Source: Armatimonadetes bacterium DC
GTDB taxonomy: Bacteria; Armatimonadota; Fimbriimonadia; Fimbriimonadales; GBS-DC
Assembly: GCA_001442985.1 (NCBI GenBank)
Contig: LDYB01000011.1
Coordinates: 1-40,871 of the forward strand
Reading direction: 5' to 3'
Length of the DNA: 40,871 bases
Under the pieces are notes generated by a model. The model searched no databases and had not been told where the DNA came from. It saw only the letters and a list, made by a program, of their open reading frames with translations. Of the stretch, positions 1,354 to 36,846 are shown piece by piece. The first letter of the stretch is position 1; every line of letters starts with the position of its first letter. A program made the position numbers and the translations under genes.

Positions 1354-2853
1354 ATGAAAACACCCAGAGGCTTTTGGGCGATTGTGATTCTCAGCACGCT
1401 CTGGCTGGGTGGGCAGTCGCAATCGGCTGCCCCACCCCTCTTTGCGCCAGTGAAGGCGACCGTGCCCCCAGACGCCCCGGCTTTGCGCAACGCGCAAGCC
1501 TACCAGCCGGTGCGCATTCGCTGGCAGGTGGTGCAGAGCCTGCAACCGGGCAGCCGCGTGCTGTTCAACCTGCTGGAAGGGGTCAACCCGATTGGCGTGG
1601 TGGAGCGTGTGGAGCGGCGGGATGAGCAGCGCTACTCCTGCTTCGGACGCCTGGAGGGGCTGGATGGCAGCCACTTTATTCTGGTGGTAGAGGAGGACGC
1701 GCTTGCATTATTCGTTTCCACGCCGATGTACGGGGCGGTGTTTGACCTGCGCTACTACAAAGACGACCTGTATGTGGTAGTGCAGATTGGCGAGGAGCCG
1801 CCCTGCGGGAATCAGGAGAACGAGACGCCACCGCCATTTGATATGACGCCCGAAGACGCCGAGTGGCACGCTCGCTTTGCCAATCAGGATTTTGAGCTGG
1901 CAGGGGGCGATGACTTCGGCACAGCTGCCTGCACCCAGCCGCGAGCCGTGCTGGATATCGCTGTGTACTACACCGTACAGGCGCGTCAGGCGATTGGTGG
2001 GGTCAATCAGATGAACGCGCGCATTCAGCTGTTTATTGACCAGTGCAATCAGGCGTATCAGAACAGTCTGGTGAGCCTGCGAGCGCGTCTGGTACGGCGG
2101 CTGGAAGTGAACTACCCCGGTGAAGGGGACGGAAACAGCATCACGCAGCTGGATCACCTGACCAACCCCAGCGACGGCGTAATGGATGGCATTCACGCCG
2201 ATCGCACCAACTATCGCGCTGATCAGGTTGTTTTGCTGGTGAACGCTTCGGATTACTGCGGGCGTGCTTGGTGTGGGAATGGCAGCGACCCGGAACGCGC
2301 GTTTGGCGTGGTGCGGTACGACTGCACAACCTACACCTTCCCTCACGAGATCGGGCACAACCAGGGTTGCGGGCACGACCGGGAGACAGATGCAGGCTGT
2401 GGCTTCCGTTCGTACGGGTTTGGCTGGCGGTTCTGGGGCAACGATGGTGTGCAGTACCGTACAGTGATGGCGTATGAGCCGGGCACCCGCATTCCCTACT
2501 TCTCGAACCCGGATGTGACCTATCAGGGCGTGGCGACGGGTGTGCCGATAGGACAGCCTAATGAAGCGCATAACGCGATGGTGATTACCGAGACTCGGCG
2601 GTCGCGGGAGACCTTCCGCTTGCTGGACATCTGGGTGGACTTTGGCTACAGTGGAACGGAGGTGGGTACTTTCGCCCAGCCCTTCAACACGGTAGCGGAG
2701 GGAGTAGAGGCGATAACGACCTTTGTGGACACGGCGCTGGTGGAGTTTCCAACGCTCTACATCAAGGCGGGTTCGCGTGCTGAGACTCTCACCATCAGCA
2801 AGCGGATGCGCATCGAGGCGTGCGGTGGGCTGGTGCGCATCGGCGCGCCGTGA
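1354..2853 (+). CDS. Secreted metzincin (M12-like) zinc metalloprotease
   Basis: 499 residues, starting at the ATG with GGAGG 8 bases upstream; an earlier in-frame start would overlap the upstream gene and lacks a ribosome site. The N-terminus is a signal peptide (basic start, hydrophobic stretch IVILSTLWLGG, then SQSAAP). The zinc site HEIGHNQGCGH lies at residues 331-341 and is followed by D. A Met-turn (VMAY, Met372) comes about 30 residues later, together the hallmark of metzincins such as reprolysin/M12 peptidases. The final 80 residues (WVDFGYSGTEVGTFAQPF onwards) resemble the beginning of a right-handed beta-helix passenger of the pectate-lyase type, but the protein stops after one or two turns, so the helix may be truncated. 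It is likely exported and digests extracellular protein. It sits between a surface repeat protein and a dockerin-like protein. Confidence 0.82.
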   Translation: MKTPRGFWAIVILSTLWLGGQSQSAAPPLFAPVKATVPPDAPALRNAQAYQPVRIRWQVVQSLQPGSRVLFNLLEGVNPIGVVERVERRDEQRYSCFGRLEGLDGSHFILVVEEDALALFVSTPMYGAVFDLRYYKDDLYVVVQIGEEPPCGNQENETPPPFDMTPEDAEWHARFANQDFELAGGDDFGTAACTQPRAVLDIAVYYTVQARQAIGGVNQMNARIQLFIDQCNQAYQNSLVSLRARLVRRLEVNYPGEGDGNSITQLDHLTNPSDGVMDGIHADRTNYRADQVVLLVNASDYCGRAWCGNGSDPERAFGVVRYDCTTYTFPHEIGHNQGCGHDRETDAGCGFRSYGFGWRFWGNDGVQYRTVMAYEPGTRIPYFSNPDVTYQGVATGVPIGQPNEAHNAMVITETRRSRETFRLLDIWVDFGYSGTEVGTFAQPFNTVAEGVEAITTFVDTALVEFPTLYIKAGSRAETLTISKRMRIEACGGLVRIGAP

Positions 2854-2863
2854 GACCCTTACC

Positions 2864-2909
2864 CCTCACGCCCTCTCCCCTGCTTGTGGGGGAGAGGGCA
2901 CGGGTGAGA
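2864..2909. repeat. REP-like palindrome
   Basis: Inverted repeat CCCTCTCCCC (2871-2880) / GGGGAGAGGG (2889-2898) with an outer CTCAC/GTGAG pair. It lies just after the protease stop and before the dockerin-like gene. The sequence type (CCTCACnCCCTCTCCC) is a very common dispersed palindrome in bacterial genomes. It could act as a transcription attenuator or mRNA-stabilising hairpin between the two genes. There is no following T-run. Confidence 0.65.
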
Positions 2910-2940
2910 GGACACAACGAAACGATGGAGGAGGACAACG

Positions 2941-3345
2941 ATGAGAACGCTGATGCTGTGTGCGATATTCGCGACGCTGCTGGGCGTCGCCTGCGCCCAG
3001 TCGGGCGGCAACTACGACCTCAGCTGGTGGACGATTGACGGCGGCGGGGTCACCTTCGCCACAGGCGGCACTTTCAACCTCGGCGGTACAATCGGTCAGC
3101 CTGACGCGAGCAGTGCGCTCACAGGGGGCACTTACAGCCTCACGGGGGGCTTCTGGTTCACGCCCGCCTGCATCCCCACGAACGGGGATGTGGACGGCAG
3201 CGGTTGCGTGGACGACGCCGACCTGCTGAATGTGCTGTTCGCGTTTGGCGCGACGGGCGCAAACCCCGCCGATGTGAACTGTGATAACACCGTAGACGAC
3301 GCCGACCTGTTGATTGTGCTGTTCAACTTCGGCAGCGGGTGTTAG
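2941..3345 (+). CDS. Secreted dockerin-type repeat protein
   Basis: 134 residues, start ATG with GGAGGAGG about 7 bases upstream. An N-terminal signal peptide ends near ACAQSGG. The middle (about residues 22-78) is rich in Gly/Thr with the pattern SGGNYDLSWWTIDGGG and GGTYSLTGGFW, a short beta-rich module that often precedes dockerin-like tails. The C-terminus has two EF-hand-like calcium loops, DVDGSGCVDDADLL and DVNCDNTVDDADLL, about 35 residues apart, the layout of a type I dockerin, with a terminal GSGC. In cellulosomal bacteria dockerins bind cohesins; no cohesin is visible here, so the domain may simply anchor or stabilise a surface protein. It is downstream of the protease and on the same strand. 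Confidence 0.75.
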   Translation: MRTLMLCAIFATLLGVACAQSGGNYDLSWWTIDGGGVTFATGGTFNLGGTIGQPDASSALTGGTYSLTGGFWFTPACIPTNGDVDGSGCVDDADLLNVLFAFGATGANPADVNCDNTVDDADLLIVLFNFGSGC

Positions 3346-3485
3346 GGCAGGGCATGGTTCTGGGTGCGAAGCGGCGGGGCGGACAAAGCCAACCCCCACA
3401 ACCTTGACCAGAGCGTGCTGGAAGATATTGACCGCACCGTGCGCTGGGGGCGAGAAATACAAACTCCATGTGCAAAAACTGCAGG

Positions 3486-3491
3486 TATAAT
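3486..3491 (+). promoter_or_regulatory. -10 box TATAAT
   Basis: Perfect TATAAT preceded by GG, 21 bases before the ATG at 3513, which has its own GGAGGTG ribosome site (3501-3507). No -35 match at the usual distance. Confidence 0.6.
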
Positions 3492-3512
3492 ACGCACGCT
3501 GGAGGTGCCAGA

Positions 3513-3566
3513 ATGCGCACAGGAGCGTGGCTCATCGGTTTCTTGCTGAACATGGGAGTATTACGC
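3513..3566 (+). pseudogene. Displaced 5' end (start and signal peptide) of the LolA-TlpA fusion
   Basis: ATG with GGAGGTG upstream and a TATAAT box 21 bases away. It encodes the signal-peptide-like MRTGAWLIGFLLN, but the frame then diverges from the downstream domain. Continuation in this frame (VLRFPDSGQNGAYLRP) looks like non-coding translation. The precise slip site cannot be fixed without a homologue. Confidence 0.5.
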
Positions 3567-3606
3567 TTCCCAGATTCTGGACAAAACGGCGCGTACCTAC
3601 GCCCAG

Positions 3607-4743
3607 ATGCGCTCCCTGCGGGTGGAAAGCCGCTCAACCGCTTCGGGTACATTTCAGAGCCTTCAGGGGGAGATGACCTACACGAACCGCGCGACCCTCC
3701 TGATGATGGTCATGCGTCCCAACAAGGTGCGGATCGACACGCTTCAGACCGATAACCCCACCCTCTCTTCAGGCAAACTCCGCTGCGACGGCGAGGTGCT
3801 GTATATTGAAAGCGCCGCCCTGCGCCAGACCCAATCTCAACCCGCCCCGAAAACCCTCCGCGAAATTTACACCACAGACAACCTGAGTGTGGTAGGGCTG
3901 ATGGTGATCGGACTGGACCCAATACGCCTCTTGATAGACCCCAACTGGCGCACGGTGGCAACTTCGCCCAAACTTATAGGGCGTGAGCGAGTGGGCAACC
4001 GGCAAACCTACAAAGTGCAGGTGCAGCTAAAGGAAGAGTCGCTCAAGGCTTTTGCACAGGGGCAGACCACCCAGACCCTCTGGATTGGCACGAAAGACTC
4101 GCTCATCTGGAAGTCGGAAATCACGATAAACTTTGCGCAAGCAGGCACACGCATGGCGATGCGCCTCACCGAAGTGTTCACGCGCCAGGAGGTGAACCCG
4201 CCCATCAACCCCACCGCCTTCGCCTACCGCTTGCCCGAAGGTTTCAAAATGGTTCAGCAGTTTGAGATGCCCGACTTCACCGAAGAAACGGGCAAGCTCA
4301 AGGGTCAGCCCGCAGGCGATTTCACTCTGAGCGATTTGCAGGGCAAGCCGGTGCGCCTCGCCGACTATAAGGGCAAGGTGGTGGTGCTAAATGTCTTCGC
4401 CCACTGGTGCGGTCCCTGCCGCGCCGAAGCGCCCGAACTGGAAAAAGACCTCTGGCAAGCCTACAAAGACAAAGGCGTGGTGGTGCTGGGCGTGGCGACC
4501 TGGGCGCAGGATAACCCCACCAAGCGCGCTCGGGATTTTGCCAGAGAGTTCAAGCTGACCTTCCCTGTGCTGGTGGACTCTGAGAACAAAGTCGCCGAGC
4601 AGTATCGGGTCAGGGGCGTGCCCACAACTTTCGTGATTGATCAGGAAGGCGTCGTGCGAGAGGTGGTGGTGGGCGCCGATGTGCAGCGGGTCAAAAGGGC
4701 AGTGGAGGCGCTCCTTCAAGGGAGTACCGCAGAGAATAAGTAG
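3607..4743 (+). CDS. LolA/DUF2092-like domain fused to TlpA-type thioredoxin (5' frameshift likely)
   Basis: The frame open here encodes a periplasmic LolA-like/DUF2092-type beta domain (about residues 1-220; RSLRVESRST onward). It is followed by a redoxin domain with WCGPC at 267-271, the cis-Pro motif GVPTTF and the FxxSDLQGKP opening typical of TlpA/ResA. Such proteins are normally secreted. The expected signal peptide is in another frame: a promoter (3486) and ribosome site lead to ATG 3513 encoding MRTGAWLIGFLLN. Around 3550-3565 the sense of the protein switches by +1 to YYASQILDKTARTYAQMRS, which runs into this frame after a TGA at 3547-3549. ATG 3607 has no ribosome site and would lack a signal peptide. 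The gene is therefore either disrupted or carries a sequencing indel. A role in extracytoplasmic thiol-disulfide chemistry is inferred. Confidence 0.7.
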   Translation: MRSLRVESRSTASGTFQSLQGEMTYTNRATLLMMVMRPNKVRIDTLQTDNPTLSSGKLRCDGEVLYIESAALRQTQSQPAPKTLREIYTTDNLSVVGLMVIGLDPIRLLIDPNWRTVATSPKLIGRERVGNRQTYKVQVQLKEESLKAFAQGQTTQTLWIGTKDSLIWKSEITINFAQAGTRMAMRLTEVFTRQEVNPPINPTAFAYRLPEGFKMVQQFEMPDFTEETGKLKGQPAGDFTLSDLQGKPVRLADYKGKVVVLNVFAHWCGPCRAEAPELEKDLWQAYKDKGVVVLGVATWAQDNPTKRARDFAREFKLTFPVLVDSENKVAEQYRVRGVPTTFVIDQEGVVREVVVGADVQRVKRAVEALLQGSTAENK

Positions 4744-8770: not shown

Positions 8771-10078
8771 TCACTCTTTGCGCATAATTAGCAAAAACTC
8801 CGACTCCATACCGCGCGGGTTTTTGTTTTTGCGTTGGCGAAAGAGCTGGCGCGTCTGGATGACGTCTTCAAGCACTCCGCAAAAAGCGAAACCCTGCGGT
8901 GCAAAAAACTCGGCGAGAATGCGCCATGTTTCCACTTGAATTCCGTCCACAGTCGGGCTGCCCACAAACACACAGAGATGCCCCCCTGACTTCAGTGTCG
9001 TTGCGGCGTTCTGGAGGGCGCGTGTGGTGTAGTAGAAATAAGCGTGCATAAGTCTCTTCAAATCCTCGCGTTGCAGCTGGGCGCACACTTGCTCATAGGT
9101 CGGTGTGCTGAATGGCTGATGCGCCTTGCGGTAGGGAATCTCAAGACGCATCAGCTCGCGCACCTTCGCTTCAGGAACACCTGTCCAGAACAAGTCCAGC
9201 TTGAAGGTGCGCAGGTATTCCTGTGCCTGCAGATACGGCGGTGAAGTAATCACCGCCTCTGTACGCGGGCATTCCGTGAGATCGACAGTCGCCGAGTCTA
9301 CGCCCGCGAATGCAATCGCGCGACAGGGGGTCGTTTTAAGTACCTGCGCCAGCGACTGAAGCCTGCCCATAATCTCCAGCGCAGCCTGAATGATGAACTG
9401 ATCCATCTCTTCTTTCCAATCTGGACGCTGAAGCCACTCCGACACCTCCTGCAGCTTACGTTTGGAACGGAACAGCTTCGGAGCCTTATGATCCGTCAGA
9501 GAGAAGCGGCGGTTCGCTCGCATCAGCGCTGCGCGCAGAACCTGAACATATGGGTTTGCTGGATCGTGAGCGTGAATCCAGCCCCAGTAGCGTGCCAGCA
9601 CTTCCAGCACCTGTTCGGGGTACCAGTAGGACAGGTTGCTCCACTGGGGATAGAAGGCAATCTGTGAGGCGAACAGTTGATTGAGCCAGCCCAGCAACTC
9701 ACCTGCTTGTAAATCCGTATAGCGGAAGTTGATTTTCGTCTCCGCATAGATTGCCAGCAAAGGGTTCAGGTCTATCAGGAGTGCATTCCGCTCTGCCAGC
9801 ACTGCCTCTAACCCCACTGTGCCTGAACCTGCAAAGGGGTCAATTACCCAGCCCCCTTCCGAGCAGAATCGGCGCACGCAATAGTGCGGCACATGGGGTA
9901 TGAACTTGGCAGGGTAATAGAAGAGACCATGGGTCAGGTAGTTCGTATCAGGAATCTCCCGCACAATCTCACGAAAGCAAACAGGCGTAACGCGCGACTC
10001 CGCTGCTGGCGAGACTTCCTCACCGAACAGCCTGTATTGATAGGGCAGTCCTTTGACCTCAGCGACTTTAGGCTTCAT
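8771..10078 (-). CDS. DNA methyltransferase of restriction-modification cassette 1
   Basis: 435 residues. SAM-binding motif I is DPFAGSGT at residues 80-87 and the catalytic motif IV is SPPY at 279-282. The roughly 190-residue stretch between them may hold the target recognition region. SPPY points to amino-methylation of cytosine (N4) or adenine (N6). It is cytoplasmic and protects host DNA from the partner nuclease. Its start overlaps the end of the upstream endonuclease by 11 bases on the same strand, so the two are translated as a pair, nuclease first. The target sequence cannot be inferred. Confidence 0.87.
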   Translation of the reverse strand: MKPKVAEVKGLPYQYRLFGEEVSPAAESRVTPVCFREIVREIPDTNYLTHGLFYYPAKFIPHVPHYCVRRFCSEGGWVIDPFAGSGTVGLEAVLAERNALLIDLNPLLAIYAETKINFRYTDLQAGELLGWLNQLFASQIAFYPQWSNLSYWYPEQVLEVLARYWGWIHAHDPANPYVQVLRAALMRANRRFSLTDHKAPKLFRSKRKLQEVSEWLQRPDWKEEMDQFIIQAALEIMGRLQSLAQVLKTTPCRAIAFAGVDSATVDLTECPRTEAVITSPPYLQAQEYLRTFKLDLFWTGVPEAKVRELMRLEIPYRKAHQPFSTPTYEQVCAQLQREDLKRLMHAYFYYTTRALQNAATTLKSGGHLCVFVGSPTVDGIQVETWRILAEFFAPQGFAFCGVLEDVIQTRQLFRQRKNKNPRGMESEFLLIMRKE

Positions 10079-11309
10079 CAGGTTTCTGTGCCTCCCACAG
10101 TGTTGGTTGACTTGTTAGCGAAGGCGAGCGATTTTTGCGCTGCCCTCTTTTTTGGCCAGTCTTACTGTATATGTGGTACATATACAGTAAATCCCTTATG
10201 TAAAGGTAATTATGATGTGCCACTCTGAAAGGCAGTGTATCAGCTTGCCAAGAAGCGAAAATCTTTTGGGCAGCTGTGTCTACCTGCTCGGTAAGTAAAT
10301 CCTCGTTCGAGGCTTCGATGTATGCTTTCAGGTACTCTACATTCGTCTTCCCTGAAGCGCAAGCTTGATTCAACTCCAACGATGCAATTGCGTATGCCAG
10401 CCACAGGTCATCCCATCGCTTGAACCGATCCACACATGCTTGTAGGGTCAGATGAGTTCTCTGATTCTGAAGAGGAGCGAGTAACCTCTCTATCTCGTGA
10501 GTTCCGTATGCGATTTTCAGGTAAATTTTGTCCTGAATCTCCAGACCTGTTGGAGAGCGTGCTTTTTCCTTAAAGGAGCTCAGTAGCTCGTCATCTGATA
10601 TAGGCTCGCCGTCTTCATTAAGCGGTCTAACCTTCAGGGATTGAGCCAATTTCTTCAGGAAGGTCTCATACTGCGCTTCTTCCTGCGACTCCCAAACTAC
10701 TATGGCATACACGACTTGCTGGGCAGGGGTGGAACCAATCTGTAGAACCTCGTTCAGTGCATCAATCAGCGAAGCCTTGGCGGTGGTCCCTCCTGTATCA
10801 TCCCGTGAACGAATCTGAATCAGGATTAACTCGCCCCGTCCCTTTCTGAGCGCCAGATCCAAATCCGAGCCGAGAGATTTCTCGGTTTGAAACAAGGACC
10901 GAATCTCTTCATGTATTGTTTTCTTCTTCGTAAAAACCTGGTAACCCTGCTGTTGGCAATAGGACGCCAAGATTTGCTCCAGCACCTTACCCTGGCGAGC
11001 GCGGTAGGAGCTATGAAACCACTGCTGAAAGCGGAACATCGCTTGATGATAATCCGCAAGAGGATAACTGCCTTTGAGTGATTCGCTTCGTGCAAGCCCT
11101 GCGGCGAAATCGGGGATGTCTGTTGCTCGCTTTTTGCTGAGCTGGCTGAGATTGTCTACGGGCAAGCCGCTGAAGAGCGCGTGTACTATCTCTTTTGCAA
11201 GGGCAAGGGGGCTTTTCAGCACCTGGCGCAGTATTTTTCCCTCCTCCCTGTCGTCCAGCAGGATAAAGTACCGCTCTTCCGAACCTGTCGCTGGCGCGCC
11301 CAATCCCAT
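10068..11309 (-). CDS. Putative type II restriction endonuclease, cassette 1
   Basis: 413 residues, no close family recognised. A plausible PD-(D/E)xK-like core is GSDLDLAL (D149/D151) followed by ELILIQIRSRDDTGG (E160, Q165-I-R167); Q-x-R in place of the common E-x-K is unusual. The flanking protein is helical with charged segments. The functional case rests on context: it overlaps the cassette 1 methyltransferase by 11 bases. Start chosen at the ATG 9 bases after a TACAAT box, implying a leaderless or near-leaderless message. Local base composition is lower in GC than the surrounding housekeeping genes, consistent with acquisition. Confidence 0.7.
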   Translation of the reverse strand: MGLGAPATGSEERYFILLDDREEGKILRQVLKSPLALAKEIVHALFSGLPVDNLSQLSKKRATDIPDFAAGLARSESLKGSYPLADYHQAMFRFQQWFHSSYRARQGKVLEQILASYCQQQGYQVFTKKKTIHEEIRSLFQTEKSLGSDLDLALRKGRGELILIQIRSRDDTGGTTAKASLIDALNEVLQIGSTPAQQVVYAIVVWESQEEAQYETFLKKLAQSLKVRPLNEDGEPISDDELLSSFKEKARSPTGLEIQDKIYLKIAYGTHEIERLLAPLQNQRTHLTLQACVDRFKRWDDLWLAYAIASLELNQACASGKTNVEYLKAYIEASNEDLLTEQVDTAAQKIFASWQADTLPFRVAHHNYLYIRDLLYMYHIYSKTGQKRGQRKNRSPSLTSQPTLWEAQKPDEA

Positions 11310-17548: not shown

Positions 17549-17893
17549 TTATATATACCCCAGCTGGCGCAGGGCGGTCAGCATCGCGTGGGCGTAGCGC
17601 CGCGAAGTGCCCGTGAGGTCGCGCACCTGTTGCACCTTATAGGGCGGCGTCAGGTTCTGGAGCTGGGCGTGCAGCTGGCGCAGGGCGTCGGTGGCGAAGT
17701 AGAGTCCTTCCGACTCTACAATCTCGCCGCGCTCGATGCCCCAGTTCAGCATGGCGCGGATGGCGTCGGGCGGCGCGCCCAGCGCCCGCGACGCCTCTTG
17801 CGGGCTGGGCGGGGCATACCCCGCCTGCCGATAAAAATCCACCACGCGCCGATAAAACGCTTCCCGACGCTGGGCACGGCTGACTGGGTTCAT
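17549..17893 (-). CDS. Stand-alone winged-helix protein resembling the SelB C-terminus
   Basis: 114 residues from the ATG that overlaps the upstream endonuclease stop (ATGA). Two winged-helix units are visible. The first contains YRQAGYAPPSPQEASRALG and an IERGEIVESEGLYFATDAL segment. The second has PPYKVQQVRDLTGTSRRYAHAML. Both match the style of the C-terminal winged helices of elongation factor SelB (LYFHxxAL and RDxLGTSRK-type motifs), which bind the SECIS hairpin. The usual final G-x-x-R-x-G-D-x-R strand is missing, because the protein stops at RQLGYI. There is no GTPase part and no selA or tRNA-Sec nearby. It could be a SelB remnant or an independent nucleic-acid-binding regulator. Confidence 0.6.
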   Translation of the reverse strand: MNPVSRAQRREAFYRRVVDFYRQAGYAPPSPQEASRALGAPPDAIRAMLNWGIERGEIVESEGLYFATDALRQLHAQLQNLTPPYKVQQVRDLTGTSRRYAHAMLTALRQLGYI

Positions 17894-18975
17894 TTTTCCC
17901 ATAGGGTTTTCTGCGAATAGTCTTCAAACGGCGCCAAAGAAACATTCCCGTTTTCTTGCTTCCATTTCAACATGTGGATACCAATCAGACCGTTTTGTCT
18001 TTCTTCTTCTTTCAGGCGATTTGCATGGTCAAATGAGTCTTGTTCGAATCCACGGGCGATCCAGTAGACCCTTATCTTTTCGTCCCCAACGCGCTGGTAC
18101 GAATTCAGCCACCACACATATCTTCTGGTTTGCTCTACGAGCTTTTCTGTTTCTGGTTTGTCTTTTTTCAGTTCGAGAACTCTATATTCACGGGTGTCAC
18201 CCCGGCTGACGATACATAAAATATCCATCTTTTGGTTGCCAGATCCGGCGTACACTTCGTTTGCAAACCAAACCAAAGAGTCCCTTGGAGCGATTCTGTC
18301 AAGCGTTTCGTTTCGACCAAGGTTCCAGCAAAACCATGCTTGAAGTTCGCATTCGGTTTTTACGGACGCAATTTGATCGTTAGGACTATCGTTGGAACCC
18401 TTGTAATCAAATCTCTCATTAGATTCTTTCAAAGAGATACTCTTTTCTTTTTCTTCATAACATAAGAACTCTTTTTCAGAGAGCTGGCAAGTAAGGACTC
18501 TCCCCTTGTTTCGAATAAGGGAAAGCAGTCCTTCAGCCTCATGAGGGAACATATAAGAACAGCCCCGTTTGCCTGCAAGTTTCCTGTATAGGAGACTCCA
18601 GCGAATGTCTCGACTCTTCTCTGGTAGCTTATCTATCGCTTCCCACTCGGAAACAGGCTTATCGTACACTTCAGCAGGTCTTATTCGAACTCGATAGATT
18701 AGGGGAATATCGAGCTCTTTTTGAAGCCATCCATCGAGAGGCTCATAAAGGGGATAGTCCGAGTCTATTTCGAAGATGCCGAAGAAACCCACTTGTTCGA
18801 CATAAAACACTACCTTATCCCCTTTCCGAGTACGCGCAATGTCCGCAAGAAGCCCGTAGTGCCTCTCTTTGTAGTTACCTGCAGTAGTTTTACCTGCAGT
18901 AGTTCCCGCAAAAAGATACTTCAAGTGATACGAGAAAGTTTTCTCATTAACGACAAACACATGGCATCGACACAT
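17890..18975 (-). CDS. Putative restriction endonuclease, cassette 2 (PD-(D/E)xK)
   Basis: 361 residues. The N-terminal 100 residues (FVVNEKTFSYHLKYLFAG, then KGDKVVFYVEQVGFFGIFEI) look like an EVE/PUA-like small-molecule or modified-base reader. The C-terminal part has a nuclease core: E210, D251 (MDIL) and E268-L-K270, the PD-(D/E)xK pattern. Three bases separate it from the methyltransferase upstream, giving an M-R cassette. The DNA is visibly AT-richer than flanking genes, which suggests transfer. A perfect 15-bp tandem duplication (18875-18904) makes the TTAGK/TTAGN repeat near residue 25-34. Specificity unknown; a modification-reading nuclease is possible given the N-terminal fold, but this is inference. 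Confidence 0.68.
   Translation of the reverse strand: MCRCHVFVVNEKTFSYHLKYLFAGTTAGKTTAGNYKERHYGLLADIARTRKGDKVVFYVEQVGFFGIFEIDSDYPLYEPLDGWLQKELDIPLIYRVRIRPAEVYDKPVSEWEAIDKLPEKSRDIRWSLLYRKLAGKRGCSYMFPHEAEGLLSLIRNKGRVLTCQLSEKEFLCYEEKEKSISLKESNERFDYKGSNDSPNDQIASVKTECELQAWFCWNLGRNETLDRIAPRDSLVWFANEVYAGSGNQKMDILCIVSRGDTREYRVLELKKDKPETEKLVEQTRRYVWWLNSYQRVGDEKIRVYWIARGFEQDSFDHANRLKEEERQNGLIGIHMLKWKQENGNVSLAPFEDYSQKTLWEK
18875..18904. repeat. 15-bp perfect tandem duplication
   Basis: TTACCTGCAGTAGTT at 18875-18889 is repeated exactly at 18890-18904 inside the cassette 2 endonuclease gene. It adds five codons, so frame is kept whether one or two copies are present. Confidence 0.85.
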
Positions 18976-18978
18976 CGG

Positions 18979-19791
18979 TCATCCCACCTTCTCGAAAAAC
19001 ATCACATATTCGTGCTTAAAAATATAGAAGTTGTGCTTTAAAGCACGATATCTCCATAAGTGGTATTGCCCTCGCTTCCCGCGATTTTCCTGAATGTCCT
19101 TGACGCAAATACTCTTCAAGCGAAAACCCTTCTGGCGAACAACATCCATCGTCTGGAAACCAAGAGGAATCCACTCCCCACGAGTGTATTTGTCCCCTAT
19201 TACCAGCACCAAGAAACGCCCTGCCGCTAAAAGAGGTGCGAAGTTGTCTAACACCCTGCCAAAAAGCTGCAGAAATTCTTCTGTCGTCAGAGCATTCGAA
19301 AGGTCCCGTGGATCTTCGCTAAAACGGATAATGTCGTGATATGGAGGATGCAAGATAAGAAGATGCGCGTGAGTAAAGCCCCACTCACCCATAATCTCGC
19401 GAACTGTTTCGACGGTACTGGGAGAAGTACTATCTCCCCATATAGCAGTTGCCAAGACCCCGTCCTTGCCTGTTTCCAGATGCACTCGCCAGCGGGCTTG
19501 CTCTACGCAGTACAGTTGTAAGTCGACGCCGATTGCGTAACGCCCGAGTCGAATCGCTTCAATAAGTGTAGTACCGAAACCAACAAAGGGGTCAATAACC
19601 AGTTCCCCTGGTTTCGTGAAACGACGCATTGCCTGATATGGTATCTGAGGTACAAAATTGCCCCAGTATTCCGCCGTATGCATTCCTGTGCTGTCGCGTT
19701 TTCCTAGCAACCAGAGGCTGTCAGTTATAATATCTTCATGGTCATCCCATCGCTCCAGTTCGATTTCGCCCAGCGTCTCGTTTTTTCGCAT
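18979..19791 (-). CDS. DNA methyltransferase of restriction-modification cassette 2
   Basis: 270 residues from the ATG; a TTG two codons upstream is the only longer start. SAM motif I is DPFVGFGT at residues 67-74. The catalytic tetrapeptide is HPPY at 148-151 (LHPPYHDI), with His where S, N or D is usual. The order and length fit amino-methyltransferases acting on adenine N6 or cytosine N4. It leads a same-strand unit with the cassette 2 endonuclease. Promoter box TATAAT (19815-19820) lies 23 bases upstream. AT-rich composition like its partner. Confidence 0.82.
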   Translation of the reverse strand: MRKNETLGEIELERWDDHEDIITDSLWLLGKRDSTGMHTAEYWGNFVPQIPYQAMRRFTKPGELVIDPFVGFGTTLIEAIRLGRYAIGVDLQLYCVEQARWRVHLETGKDGVLATAIWGDSTSPSTVETVREIMGEWGFTHAHLLILHPPYHDIIRFSEDPRDLSNALTTEEFLQLFGRVLDNFAPLLAAGRFLVLVIGDKYTRGEWIPLGFQTMDVVRQKGFRLKSICVKDIQENRGKRGQYHLWRYRALKHNFYIFKHEYVMFFEKVG

Positions 19792-19814
19792 CGCCAACCC
19801 CTGCGTCGTTTGAA

Positions 19815-26743: not shown

Positions 26744-26819
26744 GCCCCCGTAGCTCAATGGATAGAGCAGCGGCCTTCTAAGCCGTTGGTTGTGGGTTCG
26801 AGTCCCGCCGGGGGCGCCA
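26744..26819 (+). tRNA. tRNA-Arg (anticodon TCT)
   Basis: 76 bases with encoded CCA. Acceptor stem GCCCCCG pairs perfectly with CGGGGGC (26809-26815). D stem GCTC/GAGC, anticodon stem GCGGC/GCCGT around loop CTTCTAA (anticodon TCT at 26777-26779), T arm GTGGG-TTCGAGT-CCCGC. It reads AGA/AGG codons. Bases 26750-26820 are repeated exactly at 27661-27731. Confidence 0.95.
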
Positions 26820-27654: not shown

Positions 27655-27730
27655 GCCCTGGTAGCTCAATGGATAGAGCAGCGGCCTTCTAAGCCGTTGG
27701 TTGTGGGTTCGAGTCCCGCCGGGGGCGCCA
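27655..27730 (+). tRNA. Second tRNA-Arg (TCT) copy with damaged acceptor stem, possible pseudogene
   Basis: Same D, anticodon and T arms and CCA as the copy at 26744, but the first seven bases are GCCCTGG instead of GCCCCCG. Against CGGGGGC this leaves a T-G wobble at 5-68 and a G-G mismatch at 6-67. The nearest -10-like box (TATTAT, 27648-27653) ends one base before the tRNA, so transcription from it would start inside the gene. Likely a duplicated or recombined copy that may not be functional. Confidence 0.7.
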
Positions 27731-27761: not shown

Positions 27762-28841
27762 ATGCAAAAAATCCCCATCGTTGGCATGCGCACCGAGGCG
27801 TTGCGGGCATGGGTCGTTGAATCGCTCAACGAGCCTGCCTATCGCGGCAACCAGATTGCCGATTGGGTCTACCGCAAGGCAGTGGACTCGTTTGAGGCGA
27901 TGACAAACCTGCCAGCCCGCATGCGCGCCGCGCTTGCCGAAACCGCCGTCGTAACGCCGAATCGCATCGACCAGATTCAACGCTCCAGCGATGGGGTGGT
28001 GAAATGCCTGCTGAAACTGGCAGACGAAAACGAGGTGGAATGCGTCTTATTGCCCTACGAAGATCGTGTTTCGGTGTGTTTGTCTACCCAGGTGGGCTGC
28101 GCGATGGGGTGCCGGTTCTGTGCCACGGCGCAGGGCGGCTACACGCGCAACCTCACGGCAGGCGAGATTGTGGATCAGTTGCTCCATCTGCAGCGGCTCA
28201 GCTCAGAGCGAATCACCCATGTGGTGTTGATGGGAATGGGCGAGCCGTTGCTCAATCTGGAGGCGGTGGTGGAGGCGATTCACCTGATTCACGATGAGGT
28301 GGGGATTAGCATGCGCCGAATCACGCTCTCGACAGTGGGGATTGTGCCCAAAATCTACGCTCTTGCCGAACACCGCCTGCCGATTACGCTGGCAATCTCG
28401 CTCCACGCGCCGGACGACGAGACTCGCAGCCGCATTATGCCTGTCAATCGCAAGTGGGGGGTAGACGCGCTGATTCAGGCGGCGCGCGACTATTTTGAGA
28501 CGACGGGGCGCCGCATCACTTTCGAGTACCTGCTGCTGGAAGGGGTGAACGATACCCCTGCGCATGCGCATCAGCTCGCGGCGAAGCTGAAGGGAATACC
28601 CTGTCTGGTGAACCTGATCCCGTTCAACTATGTGCCGACGCCCGAGAATTTCCGGCGTCCGTCGGCGGAGCGGGTGCGCGCCTTTCGCGAGATTCTGGAG
28701 CGTTCGGGGATTGAAGTAACTCAACGCAAAGAGCGCGGGCACGACATCGACGCGGCGTGCGGTCAGCTACGCGGCAAGCATCGGGGCAAACCCATCCCCC
28801 TACGGCTTGCCAGTCCAGCGACTCACCGCCTCACGGGCTAA
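27762..28841 (+). CDS. rlmN: 23S rRNA (adenine(2503)-C(2))-methyltransferase
   Basis: 359 residues, radical-SAM enzyme that methylates A2503 of 23S rRNA and A37 of some tRNAs. The N-terminal helical domain contains YRGNQIADWVYRK. The [4Fe-4S] motif CAMGCRFCATAQGG follows STQVGCAMG, then MGMGEPLLN, STVGIVP and SLHAPDDE. The ending (NLIPFNYVPTPENFRRPS, then VTQRKERGHDIDAACGQLRG) holds the conserved second catalytic cysteine. Length is standard. Start fixed by the TACAAT box and family N-terminus. The last 42 bases overlap the convergent lipoprotein gene. Confidence 0.95.
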   Translation: MQKIPIVGMRTEALRAWVVESLNEPAYRGNQIADWVYRKAVDSFEAMTNLPARMRAALAETAVVTPNRIDQIQRSSDGVVKCLLKLADENEVECVLLPYEDRVSVCLSTQVGCAMGCRFCATAQGGYTRNLTAGEIVDQLLHLQRLSSERITHVVLMGMGEPLLNLEAVVEAIHLIHDEVGISMRRITLSTVGIVPKIYALAEHRLPITLAISLHAPDDETRSRIMPVNRKWGVDALIQAARDYFETTGRRITFEYLLLEGVNDTPAHAHQLAAKLKGIPCLVNLIPFNYVPTPENFRRPSAERVRAFREILERSGIEVTQRKERGHDIDAACGQLRGKHRGKPIPLRLASPATHRLTG

Positions 28842-29819
28842 TTCGGGCTGAACCTCGCCGACAATCACAATCCCCCACCCGTCAGCGCGACGCGCCGCCA
28901 CCACCACGCCTCGCTTGTCCGAGCCTGCTATGGGTGAGTTGCCCGATGCGGGCAGCAATCCGCATCCGGGCGCGGCGAAAAACACACTGAACTCGTCCAT
29001 GCCGTTGGAATAGAGCGCGACGAGGCTCAGCTGTTTCGAATCGCATGGGCAGGTGCGCCGCGTCGCACTGATGAGCTGATAGCCCTGAGGCGGTTTGAAC
29101 GCTTTCAGGCGTGCCTTGTCCTCTTTCGTGAGGGGCGCATTCACGACACGCTCAATCTGCCAATCGCGGGGTGGCTCGGGCAAGGCAAAGGGCTGGGCAG
29201 TCGGTGCAACGGGTTGAATCTGGGTTCGGGTCTCGTCGCCCATCACGCGCCCCCACATGTCCCGTACCATGATGCGTCCAATCTGCGGCTCGCCCTGTGC
29301 CCGAATCCAGTAGCGGCGCGTGGTGAAACCTCCCGGAACAGACGCCTCCACAATCACCCAATCCTGCCCCTGACTTTGCTCGCGTCCTACCACACGCAGA
29401 CGCGCTTGCTGAGCGAAAAGTTGCGCAATCCGCTCACGCCCTGCCTTATCGGGCGCGCGCGGAACTATCCGACAGCGCGACTGCGAAGGATACCAGTGAA
29501 TAACTTTCTCAGGGGTCAGGAAGGTGGTCGGATAGAACGCCTTACCTCCAATCATGCAGCCTGTGGCGGAGCGCTCGGTCATGCGCACGAAATCGGGGTG
29601 TGGGCGCTCGTACTCAATCACTTTGGGCATCTCGTCGCCTCCTGTGGAGAGCAGGATCTGCATCGTGCATGGGCGTCGGGCGTCGTCAAGGATGGCTTGA
29701 ATCCACCGTTGTTCCTGAGGCGAGCGTGCAGGCGCGCCTGCCTGCTGGGGAGCAGGCTGACAACCCCATAGCCCCACGCTGAGCCAGAACGCCATGAGCC
29801 ACCATCTACCGTGCGCCAT
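28800..29819 (-). CDS. RseB/MucB-like lipoprotein
   Basis: 339 residues; the second of two adjacent ATGs is chosen because GGAGG sits 6 bases upstream. The signal ends in a lipobox-like LWGC. The body reads as a LolA-like half (up to about residue 190, including YWIRAQGEPQIGRIMV) and a C-terminal domain ending DGWGIVIVGEVQPELAREAV, which closely resembles the end of RseB/MucB. RseB binds the anti-sigma factor outside the cytoplasm and senses envelope stress. Context supports this: it overlaps an anti-sigma gene by 14 bases, itself coupled to a sigma factor. Overlaps rlmN at the 3' end. Confidence 0.72.
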   Translation of the reverse strand: MAHGRWWLMAFWLSVGLWGCQPAPQQAGAPARSPQEQRWIQAILDDARRPCTMQILLSTGGDEMPKVIEYERPHPDFVRMTERSATGCMIGGKAFYPTTFLTPEKVIHWYPSQSRCRIVPRAPDKAGRERIAQLFAQQARLRVVGREQSQGQDWVIVEASVPGGFTTRRYWIRAQGEPQIGRIMVRDMWGRVMGDETRTQIQPVAPTAQPFALPEPPRDWQIERVVNAPLTKEDKARLKAFKPPQGYQLISATRRTCPCDSKQLSLVALYSNGMDEFSVFFAAPGCGLLPASGNSPIAGSDKRGVVVAARRADGWGIVIVGEVQPELAREAVSRWTGKP

Positions 29820-30261
29820 CATTCACCTCGCCTCCGCTCGATAACGACAGGTGCAAGTTAACGGCTTCAGTATGGGGCGCCCAGTCGAGGTGAGCGCGGT
29901 AAAACGGTTCCATATCCATCTGGGTTAATGCGGGCGGGGGTGTGGGGCGGCTCCACCACTGCCAGAATGCCACCAGCGCCAGCACCGCCGCTGCCGAACC
30001 GATCAGCGCGTATACTTTTCGGGGCATGAACAGACGCTTCTGGTGCAGGCGCACCTGCACGCCTTGCCAGATCGCTTCGGTAGGCACAGGCGGCGCCCAG
30101 TGCTGCAGCAGTTCAGGAACCCGCGCCAGTCGGTGGCATTCAGCGCGGCACGCTTCACACGCCTCAAGGTGCGCCTCCACCGCCTGTGCCGCCGTCGGCT
30201 CCAGATTTTGCTCCAGGTAGTCTGCCAGCTGTTTTTGGATCGTTTCACACGGATGCTTCAT
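29806..30261 (-). CDS. Zinc-finger anti-sigma factor (membrane)
   Basis: 151 residues. An N-terminal zf-HC2 anti-sigma domain has the zinc motif HLEACEACRAEC (His followed by Cys-x2-Cys). One membrane helix (about 84-102, YALIGSAAAVLALVAFWQWW) and a short external tail follow. It should hold the adjacent sigma factor inactive until the tail is sensed or cut. Its ATG overlaps the sigma factor stop (ATGA) and its 3' end overlaps the RseB-like gene. Confidence 0.87.
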   Translation of the reverse strand: MKHPCETIQKQLADYLEQNLEPTAAQAVEAHLEACEACRAECHRLARVPELLQHWAPPVPTEAIWQGVQVRLHQKRLFMPRKVYALIGSAAAVLALVAFWQWWSRPTPPPALTQMDMEPFYRAHLDWAPHTEAVNLHLSLSSGGEVNDGAR

Positions 30262-30860
30262 TCGTTTTCGCCCTCCACCTCAACAAAGTCTTTCAGCAGG
30301 ATTCGGAGCGCAAGACGCGCCCGCGCCAGACGCGACTTCACCGTGCCCACCGGGATGCCCAGCATCTGAGCCACTTCTTCCACAGGTAAGCCCTCCATGT
30401 AGTGGAGGACCACGACGCTTCGGTGAATCTCGCTCAGTTGACCGAGCGCGCGTTGCACCGCCTCGCTGAGCTCGCTGGACTGCACCGCCGCCAGCACATC
30501 GCCTGCAGGGTCCTCAATCTGCCACTCTACTTCCTCGCCCGTTTCGGTCGTCAGCGGAGCGTCCAGCGAGTCGAAACGGACGCGCTTATTGCGACGCAGC
30601 TTATCGATGGCGAGGTTCGTAGCGGTGCGTCGGAGCCACGCGCCGAGATTCTCGCGGTTCTGCAGGCGTGGCAACTCCTGATACGCCCGCAGGAACACCT
30701 CCTGTGTGAGCTCCTGCGCGTCGTCATGGTTGTTCGTGATGCCCAGCAGGAGGCGGTAGACCGCAGCGTGGTAGCGCTGGAACAGCACCTCAAAGGCGCG
30801 CTCCTCGCCTTCACACGCCCGTGCAATCAGCTCGCTATCGGTCAGCCCATACACGAACAC
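30258..30860 (-). CDS. ECF sigma factor (RpoE-like)
   Basis: 200 residues from a GTG; a second GTG at 30854 with GGGG about 8 bases upstream is equally likely. Region 2 (AFEVLFQRYHAAVYRLLLGI through ELTQEVFLRAYQ and AWLRRTATNLAIDKLRR) binds core polymerase and the -10. Region 4 (LSEIHRSVVVLHYMEGLPVE, then IPVGTVKSRLARAR) is the helix-turn-helix for the -35. There is no region 1.1 or 3, as in group 4 sigma factors. It is the first cytoplasmic component of the sigma/anti-sigma/RseB-like set. Confidence 0.92.
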   Translation of the reverse strand: MFVYGLTDSELIARACEGEERAFEVLFQRYHAAVYRLLLGITNNHDDAQELTQEVFLRAYQELPRLQNRENLGAWLRRTATNLAIDKLRRNKRVRFDSLDAPLTTETGEEVEWQIEDPAGDVLAAVQSSELSEAVQRALGQLSEIHRSVVVLHYMEGLPVEEVAQMLGIPVGTVKSRLARARLALRILLKDFVEVEGENE

Positions 30861-30896: not shown

Positions 30897-32123
30897 TCAT
30901 GGGGCGACCTGCAGCCATTCATCCCATCGGGTTGCCCGCGAGAGGGCAGTATTGTTATACCGCCCCAGATACTCCCCCGCGCTGGGGAAGTAGATGGATA
31001 ATCCGTAGGAATAGCGTACCCGATTGTTATTGCCGTGATTATTGGCAATAATTGCCTGCTGGAGCGCGCTCTGAAGGGCGTTCCCACGCTGAATGAGTTC
31101 GGGGTCGTTCGTGTAGAGTTTGATGAGGTCTACCGCATGCCACAGGTCGCGATACTCGGGGTAGCTGGAGTAGCTCTGGGCGTTCTGGCGGGCATTCTGG
31201 AGCGCGTTCAAGTAGAGGGTGCGTTTGTTGATCAGGCTCTCGGCAAACAAATCCAGTGCGCTCGCAACGGCATCCAGTTTGCTGGTGTCCACCGCCGACT
31301 GCGTGATGTTGGTGTAGAAGGGATAGTTTGCGGCGTACCACGCCACAAAGCGGTCGGGAATCTGGCGTGCCCATTCTACGGGTGCCATGTCGCTATCGGC
31401 GACTATCGGCGCCAGAATCTCATGGTAAGGGTAGCCTTCGCCAGGGGGGCTTTCTTCGGAGCCGACGATAATCCGCGCCACATTCCGACACTCATACGCT
31501 ACCTCCAGCATCTGCATCAGCGAGGCGTCAAACAGCAGCACATCCATCATGGGGTCGTTGCTGGTGGGGCGGATGGCGGTGGGTAAATCCCAGATTCGGA
31601 TATAAGTGCCCAGCTGGTCGTCAAACGAGACGCCGCGTCCCAGCGCTGCACGGGAGCGCCAGCCGGAGCCGTGATTCCAGATAACCAGCACATAGCGCTC
31701 GGCAGGGTAGTTTGCTCGCGCCCAGCGAATAAACTCACGGAGCGTGTCGGGGCTGCCCATGTCCACACCGTCGCCCATGTCTTCCACCAGCTCCGAGCGA
31801 ATCTGGTTGGGGTCGTTGTCGGGTTTGATGAGGTAGCGGCGCGTGCCCGTCCAGCTCCCCTGCGGAGCGAAGGGGCGCGCGCGCTTCCACTGCACGACAA
31901 TCCGCACATTCGGGTTGCCCGCCACCTGCTCCATCTGGTTCACATTCATCTCGCTGAACTCGTCCAGATCGTTCGCCGCGTTTAAAAACACCATCACCGT
32001 CCAGCGAACCGTGCCCGTGCCCCCGATAATGCCCCGCGCACGACCGCTACTGCAGCAGCTGGTGAACACAAGGAGCAGGGGAAACAGCACCAGAACGCCC
32101 AGAATCTGTAGCCTGCGTTTCAT
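30897..32123 (-). CDS. Clostripain-like (C11) lipoprotein with catalytic Cys replaced by Ser
   Basis: 408 residues from the ATG with GGAG upstream and a TATACT box. Lipoprotein signal with VFTSC lipobox. The C11 caspase-like fold is seen in VRWTVMVFLNAANDLDEF, the catalytic His in VIWNHGSGW (H151) and the segment LLFDASLMQMLEVAYE, where clostripain-family enzymes have DACLMG. The codon for residue 201 is TCG (Ser), checked on the complementary strand. His and nucleophile position are 50 residues apart, close to active family members. The protein is thus either inactive and used as a binding module, or a Ser variant. It lies 36 bases before the sigma factor gene on the same strand. Confidence 0.82.
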   Translation of the reverse strand: MKRRLQILGVLVLFPLLLVFTSCCSSGRARGIIGGTGTVRWTVMVFLNAANDLDEFSEMNVNQMEQVAGNPNVRIVVQWKRARPFAPQGSWTGTRRYLIKPDNDPNQIRSELVEDMGDGVDMGSPDTLREFIRWARANYPAERYVLVIWNHGSGWRSRAALGRGVSFDDQLGTYIRIWDLPTAIRPTSNDPMMDVLLFDASLMQMLEVAYECRNVARIIVGSEESPPGEGYPYHEILAPIVADSDMAPVEWARQIPDRFVAWYAANYPFYTNITQSAVDTSKLDAVASALDLFAESLINKRTLYLNALQNARQNAQSYSSYPEYRDLWHAVDLIKLYTNDPELIQRGNALQSALQQAIIANNHGNNNRVRYSYGLSIYFPSAGEYLGRYNNTALSRATRWDEWLQVAP

Positions 32124-35973: not shown

Positions 35974-36846
35974 ATGACGGAGAAGGGGTTTTGCGTGAAG
36001 ATTTTCATTCCCTCTGGAGATCCAGCAGGACTCCGGATAATAGAGAAGTCTAATTGGATTGGTCTGGGAATGGTTTTTCCACGAGTTCTCTTCAACGAGG
36101 TCTCCAAGCGTGAAGAGCTGAAGCAAGCAGGCGTGTATATCCTCTGGGGACCGAGTGAGTCTGAAATACTACCCAGAGTATACATAGGTGAAAGCGACTG
36201 CGTTGTCGAGAGACTCAGATTACATGTAAAAGAAAAAGAATTTTGGACTCATGCCATAGTTTTCACTACGAATTGTTCTCCAAAACTAACAAAGGCTCAT
36301 TTCAAGTACATCGAGTATAGACTTCACTCCCTTGCTTCACAAGCGAAACTTGCAGAGATAGAAAACAGCAATGCTCCAACACCATATCAGTTATCTGAGT
36401 CAGATAGGGCGGAAGCAGAGCTGTTTCTCCAAGACATTCTACTTTGCTTACCTCTAGCAGGCGTAAACTTTTTCGAGGTTTCCCAAGCACCTCAGACGGC
36501 TTCCCCCAGTGGAAATCTGTGTCTTCGAAGGGACAACGACATTATTGCTTGGGGTACGGAAACCAGTAAGGGATTTGTCGTACTAAAAGGAGCGCGGGCA
36601 CTAAAAGAAACACAAAAATCCATTCACCCTTATCTATACCAACTTCGCAACGAACTTATCAGTCAAGGTGTTTTGTTGGACAAAGGCACTCACTTTGAGC
36701 TGACACAGGATTACCTATTTAACTCGCCATCTATGGCTGCAGGTGTCCTTTTAGGCAGGTCTGCAAATGGGCTTCGAGAGTGGAGGGAATGTGATGGCGA
36801 GCGAACCCTGAAAGAGTTGAGAAAAGGAATGGTAAGTGCGCCATGA
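35974..36846 (+). CDS. GIY-YIG nuclease-domain protein with DUF4357-like tail
   Basis: 290 residues; AAGGGG lies upstream of the ATG. GIY-YIG core: GVYILWG (53-59) and VYIGES (69-74), then an Arg (R80/R82) and H84, the usual active-site set. The C-terminus (LYQLRNELISQGVLL through SPSMAAGVLLGRSANGLREW) matches the DUF4357 type often fused to GIY-YIG or found with restriction genes. A role as a DNA endonuclease in defence or mobile DNA is inferred. The gene is clearly AT-richer than its neighbours and is flanked by short antitoxin- and toxin-like genes. Confidence 0.8.
   Translation: MTEKGFCVKIFIPSGDPAGLRIIEKSNWIGLGMVFPRVLFNEVSKREELKQAGVYILWGPSESEILPRVYIGESDCVVERLRLHVKEKEFWTHAIVFTTNCSPKLTKAHFKYIEYRLHSLASQAKLAEIENSNAPTPYQLSESDRAEAELFLQDILLCLPLAGVNFFEVSQAPQTASPSGNLCLRRDNDIIAWGTETSKGFVVLKGARALKETQKSIHPYLYQLRNELISQGVLLDKGTHFELTQDYLFNSPSMAAGVLLGRSANGLREWRECDGERTLKELRKGMVSAP

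Follow-up and report, generated by a model that had tools for sequence, protein, structure and literature searches.

The window, i.e. the whole analysed stretch of 40,871 nucleotides, carries a gene for a lipoprotein of the clostripain family (peptidase family C11), followed downstream by genes for an extracytoplasmic function (ECF) sigma factor, an anti-sigma factor and a MucB/RseB-like lipoprotein (Table 1). The C11 gene starts with ATG at position 32123, its last codon ends at 30900 and the stop codon occupies 30897-30899. The Pfam model Peptidase_C11 (PF03415) matches residues 45-404 with an E-value of 5.9e-51 and 174.5 bits against a cut-off of 25.8. Homology to family C11 thus extends over the catalytic domain, and the family assignment made in the initial annotation holds. 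Among solved C11 structures, 6n9j (E 2e-15) and clostripain 9cip (E 1.4e-12) are matched by sequence. The gene is the only one of its family in the 2.85-Mb source genome, and the closest named relatives are metagenome genomes of Fimbriimonadales, Armatimonadota. The lipobox of the window protein is weak (FTSC at residues 20-23, then C24); the closest relatives have a typical one, e.g. LAGCGGG. Two longer C11 homologs carry their additional length at the N-terminus.

Table 1. Features of the C11 gene and its downstream neighbors (positions in the window).
Feature	Position	Strand	Evidence
C11 (clostripain-family) lipoprotein gene, 408 aa, Ser201 at nucleophile position	30897..32123	-	PF03415; fold match to clostripain 9cip
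Signal peptide and lipobox cysteine (C23/C24)	32052..32123	-	Sequence; typical lipobox in orthologs
His151 codon, catalytic His position (PmC11 His133)	31671..31673	-	Invariant: 143/143 Ser forms, 46/46 Cys forms
Arg163 codon at the PmC11 Lys147/clostripain Arg190 autocleavage position	31635..31637	-	Alignment; PmC11 site PMC4850288
Asp199 codon, S1-pocket Asp (PmC11 Asp177)	31527..31529	-	Invariant in all Ser and Cys forms; PMC4850288
Ser201 codon TCG (PmC11 Cys179)	31521..31523	-	Codon read; orthologs all TCG
Loop S222-EESPPGEGYP-Y233; Ser225-Pro226 vary with Ser201	31425..31460	-	Alignment, contrasts; Pro226 = PmC11 Thr204
ECF sigma factor (neighbor, next gene downstream)	30258..30860	-	Pfam search
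Anti-sigma factor with zf-HC2 domain (neighbor)	29806..30261	-	Pfam search
MucB/RseB-like lipoprotein (neighbor)	28800..29822	-	Sub-threshold Pfam match

The predicted structure agrees with the family assignment. An AlphaFold2 model from 10 sequences is of moderate confidence (pLDDT 65, catalytic loops below 50) and aligns in VIA-align with Z 26.2 to 9cip (334 aligned), 25.2 to 6mzo and 24.2 to 6n9j. Four C11 structures score Z 23-26, and other clan CD folds score 8-9. In the model, three strands (143-150, 193-199 and 216-222) lead into His151, Ser201 and the 222-233 loop, a predicted placement like that of clan CD active sites.

The nucleophile segment of the window protein reads LLFDASLMQMLEVAYE. 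The initial annotation had described Ser in place of the catalytic Cys within DASLM, together with a retained His at family-like spacing. Both readings are borne out, with the TCG codon of Ser201 located 50 residues after His151 in WNHGSGW. The protein therefore has the His of the C11 catalytic dyad and Ser201 instead of the Cys. The S1-pocket Asp that C11 enzymes carry two residues ahead of the nucleophile is present as Asp199. Arg163, five residues before the conserved Asp168, lies in the loop that follows the His strand and aligns with the basic residue used there for autoprocessing, which in PmC11 is the autocleavage residue Lys147 (PMC4850288). The surrounding loop is otherwise variable in length and sequence. 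The window protein resembles PmC11 and clostripain (PMC4850288) in the match to PF03415 over the whole domain, the caspase-like sheet with a C-terminal domain, the placement of the His and the S1 Asp, a basic residue at the site corresponding to autocleavage, and the spacing between His and nucleophile. It differs in the Ser at the site of the nucleophilic Cys and in Ser225-Pro226 of the pocket loop, where PmC11 has Glu203-Thr204. We class the window protein as a Ser-type variant within the C11 fold family. As it lacks the defining Cys, we do not list it among the C11 cysteine peptidases.

The Ser form is widespread in the phylum. Matches to C11 were found in 219 of 291 Armatimonadota genomes, and 170 C11 domains were fetched and aligned, with about 50 weaker matches left out. 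The nucleophile position holds Ser in 143 domains (137 genomes, 19 families), Cys in 26 and Pro in one; Ala, Gly and Thr never occur. The initial annotation had proposed such an alignment and named relatives with Cys only as the case against its reading; Ser is instead the conserved state in the phylum. C11 domains from other phyla have Cys in 20 of 20 cases (15 whole genomes, five plasmid records), a sample too small to confine the Ser form to Armatimonadota. The family includes 17 further genomes; 12 carry an ortholog, and all 12 read DASLMQM with the Ser codon TCG. A sequencing or assembly error at Ser201 is thereby discounted, as these are independent assemblies, and a recent inactivating mutation confined to this genome conflicts with the presence of Ser in 19 families; together we regard such explanations as having a negligible chance of being correct. 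A pseudo-enzyme limited to one genome is ruled out by the phylum-wide count.

His151, Gly152 and Asp199 are invariant in all 143 Ser forms. At the autocleavage position, 135/143 Ser forms and 25/26 Cys forms of the phylum have a basic residue. The position before the nucleophile, 200, is Cys in 28 Ser forms (D-C-S) and Ser in nine (D-S-S), and is neither in any of the 46 Cys forms. Cys200 was considered as a substitute nucleophile and rejected, as it is absent from 115/143 Ser forms including the window protein. The single domain with Pro belongs to a degenerate paralog directly downstream of a Ser-type C11 gene (L178, G213:C458, ORF 2659-4101, + strand), in which His has become Thr, the nucleophile has become Pro and the loop motif is lost. 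Judged from its sequence, this paralog is a true pseudo-peptidase and shows how loss of function looks among C11 proteins. The basic residue at its cleavage position is still present, so that this residue taken by itself is weak evidence.

A second site changes together with the nucleophile. Position 226 of the pocket loop is Pro in 142/143 Ser forms versus 1/26 Cys forms of the phylum, the other 25 having Glu, Thr, Val, Ile or Ser. Every Ser form has Ser at position 225, which is variable among Cys forms. By column, the difference between Ser and Cys forms amounts to 0.96 for Pro226 and 0.83 for Ser225, with the next column at 0.55. In the ungapped alignment, positions 225 and 226 correspond to Glu203 and Thr204 of PmC11, and Thr204 is among the residues lining the pocket around the dyad (PMC4850288). 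Of seven independent contrasts, about six show Pro226 and Ser225 switching along with the nucleophile, and almost none is opposed (sign test p 0.031, uncorrected because the loop sites were picked after inspection). Clear contrasts are provided by a tandem pair in genome G101, the pairs in f21 and f12, the Cys clade of f3, and f33/34 versus f35. The G101 pair and the f21 pair (sister genera) are each about 66% identical. The G101 paralogs (L118, G101:C6:1909500-1915300, ORFs 816-2579 and 2632-4392, + strand) differ at both sites. The Cys-type copy has an LTP loop and has lost the cleavage-site Arg; the Ser-type copy has an SPP loop and keeps it. The two constitute a natural test pair.

The exchange between Ser and Cys occurred repeatedly. 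A tree of 100 rows (IQ-TREE, LG+C20), from which the nucleophile and loop columns were left out, requires about eight Ser/Cys changes, at least seven of them on well-supported branches. A single Ser clade with one change was recovered in 0% of 200 bootstrap trees, and forcing the Ser rows together on the same reduced alignment cost 600 log units (AU p 5e-8). Both results rule out a history in which Cys changed to Ser once, in an ancestor, with no later change. Cys rows sit within Ser clades, a position opposite to the one expected from long-branch attraction to the Cys outgroup. The nested Cys rows have long branches, and may therefore be diverged paralogs with new roles. Gene conversion of a short segment could transfer both sites at once; a single donor is argued against by the differing loop sequences of the Cys rows.

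Codons at the nucleophile add a further layer to this history. Ser is encoded by TCN in 67 and by AGY in 75 of 142 sequences (the query row apart), and Cys always by TGY. By parsimony, the root is assigned TGY, the family of the window and most others TCN, and the ancestor of f2-f4 AGY, with at least five later changes from AGY to TCN within f3. Passing between TCN and AGY takes either two substitutions at once or an intermediate codon for Cys or Thr. Thr was seen in none of 190 domains and Cys lineages with TGY are nested between TCN and AGY Ser lineages in the same part of the tree, which makes a route through Cys plausible. An old proposal connects the two kinds of active-site serine codon through a cysteine intermediate. 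If the Ser forms are catalytic, the co-occurrence of TCN-Ser, TGY-Cys and AGY-Ser codons in one lineage would be a living case of it.

We suggest that the window protein is a lipid-anchored protease of clostripain fold at the cell surface or in the periplasm, with Ser201 as a nucleophile activated by His151 (probability roughly 0.57). The protein would be secreted and then lipidated. Self-cleavage after Arg163, in a loop blocking the active site, might follow as in PmC11 and clostripain. The processed enzyme would cut Arg/Lys-Xaa bonds through an acyl-Ser201 ester, with Asp199 holding the basic P1 side chain. The Ser form could thus represent a long-lived state of the C11 family in Armatimonadota, its active site re-tuned by Ser225-Pro226, with Ser and Cys forms interconverted several times. 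The initial annotation had offered a pseudo-enzyme or a Ser-type variant as alternatives. We favor a working Ser nucleophile over decay, as a prediction, because Ser and Cys alternate to the exclusion of other residues, His and S1 Asp are intact and invariant, the activation-site Arg is retained, and the pocket change recurs. Arg163 could also be kept as an internal ligand of the pocket, without any cleavage.

C11 and papain-like enzymes usually lose their activity when the Cys is mutated to Ser. The mutant PNT1-C136S did not support viability (PMC4850289), and SERA5, with a natural and family-wide Ser at the papain Cys site, is non-enzymatic (PMC4671257); our estimate for catalysis is set with these cases in mind. 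They are also what lends weight to a conserved pseudo-protease, which we consider a possible explanation, if a less probable one. The fold, the pocket and the dyad geometry would then have been preserved for the binding of basic peptides or of a partner protein, and Ser201 would merely fill the space of the lost thiol in a surface receptor, inhibitor or scaffold. SERA5 keeps peptide binding with no detectable activity, and its S596A mutant has no phenotype (PMC4671257); a conserved His and S1 Asp can serve binding too. The near-complete restriction of the site to Ser or Cys (169/170 phylum domains) argues against such a role, as does the recurrence of the exchange across several lineages, accompanied by a change at one pocket residue. 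The sole clearly decayed paralog, moreover, lost His, nucleophile and loop motif together. Were the Ser forms inactive after all, they would constitute a phylum-wide, strictly conserved pseudo-protease family, now named peptidases by annotation pipelines.

Chemistry at Ser201 might also serve another end than proteolysis of substrates, such as that of an esterase, a transpeptidase or a single-turnover maturase cleaving itself at Arg163. Retention of the zymogen-site Arg in most Ser forms would fit such a maturase, and clan CD includes legumain-type peptide ligases, which are among the structural matches of the model. We found no sequence feature indicating another acceptor or substrate, however, and the S1 Asp of proteolytic members is invariant, making this explanation improbable. 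About equally doubtful, or slightly more so, is the idea that the protein works in envelope-stress signaling together with the adjacent ECF sigma, anti-sigma and RseB-like genes, for instance by making the site-1 cut in the anti-sigma factor. The initial annotation had placed the C11 gene at the head of this set, and its position is indeed such, with the sigma gene starting at a GTG at 30860 on the same strand after a gap of 36 bp and an RseB-like gene included. The implied functional link fails on synteny: the sigma/anti-sigma set does not adjoin C11 in the other family members or in the more distant genomes examined. Only 3/18 family genomes have the RseB-like gene, versus 13 with C11, and in G015, a near-complete genome, it is present while C11 is not. 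A conserved association of C11 with the RseB/anti-sigma/ECF module is thus absent, and we rejected a tie to these genes. Apart from C11 and genes shared by small sets of 3-4 loci, a survey of 20 loci and the window found no conserved gene in the neighborhood. The C11 protein probably acts alone, on the cell surface or within the periplasm.

To our knowledge, caspase-like proteases of clan CD are classed as purely cysteine peptidases. Trypanosoma MCA4, one of the catalytically impaired members of clan CD, has a caspase-like fold with Ser at the Cys site and is described as a pseudopeptidase in a few species. Unlike the Armatimonadota proteins, MCA4 is not known to belong to a phylum-wide family with repeated switching. 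A search of the open literature, subscription papers apart, found no described Ser-type C11 protein. Plasmodium SERA5 and other Ser-type SERA proteins of the papain-like group (PMC4671257) share with the Armatimonadota C11 proteins a natural, family-wide Ser at the Cys position, a retained His and Cys-type members in the same family. The differences are the clan CA fold and the demonstrated lack of activity of SERA5, whereas the exchange in Armatimonadota recurs and is tied to a pocket substitution. The chymotrypsin-like PA clan likewise shows that one fold can take either nucleophile, and TEV protease with Ser regained near-wild-type activity in the laboratory after mutations at other positions (PMC4576821). 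The PA fold is unrelated, and its natural switch is ancient, in contrast to recurrent switching within one bacterial phylum. We see about even odds that true serine peptidases of caspase/clostripain fold make up a large and ancient group in Armatimonadota, their nucleophile having switched between Ser and Cys several times together with the pocket dipeptide. A natural Ser-type branch would turn clan CD into a mixed clan and would reveal a second site that lets a cysteine protease use serine. Since Ser and Cys forms occur as close paralogs, the evolution of nucleophile switches becomes directly testable with natural proteins.

Other parts of the window contain further features. Two tRNA-Arg genes with the same anticodon (TCT) lie about 900 bases apart on the + strand (26744-26819 and 27655-27730), and the open reading frames across them contain a spurious translation of tRNA. 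At 8771-11309 on the - strand, a DNA methylase gene (N6_N4_Mtase) overlaps the end of a gene for a 413-residue protein in a lower-GC stretch. The 413-residue protein has no Pfam or PADLOC match, and the two possibly form a type II restriction-modification pair. A second DNA methylase at 17890-19797 on the - strand (PADLOC MTase_II, E 6e-105) sits in the lowest-GC stretch of the window (47%) and adjoins a 361-residue protein, also without a Pfam or PADLOC match; this is likely another restriction-modification cassette. At 35974-36846 on the + strand, a DUF4357 protein matches the PADLOC candidate defence family PDC-S14 (E 1e-87).
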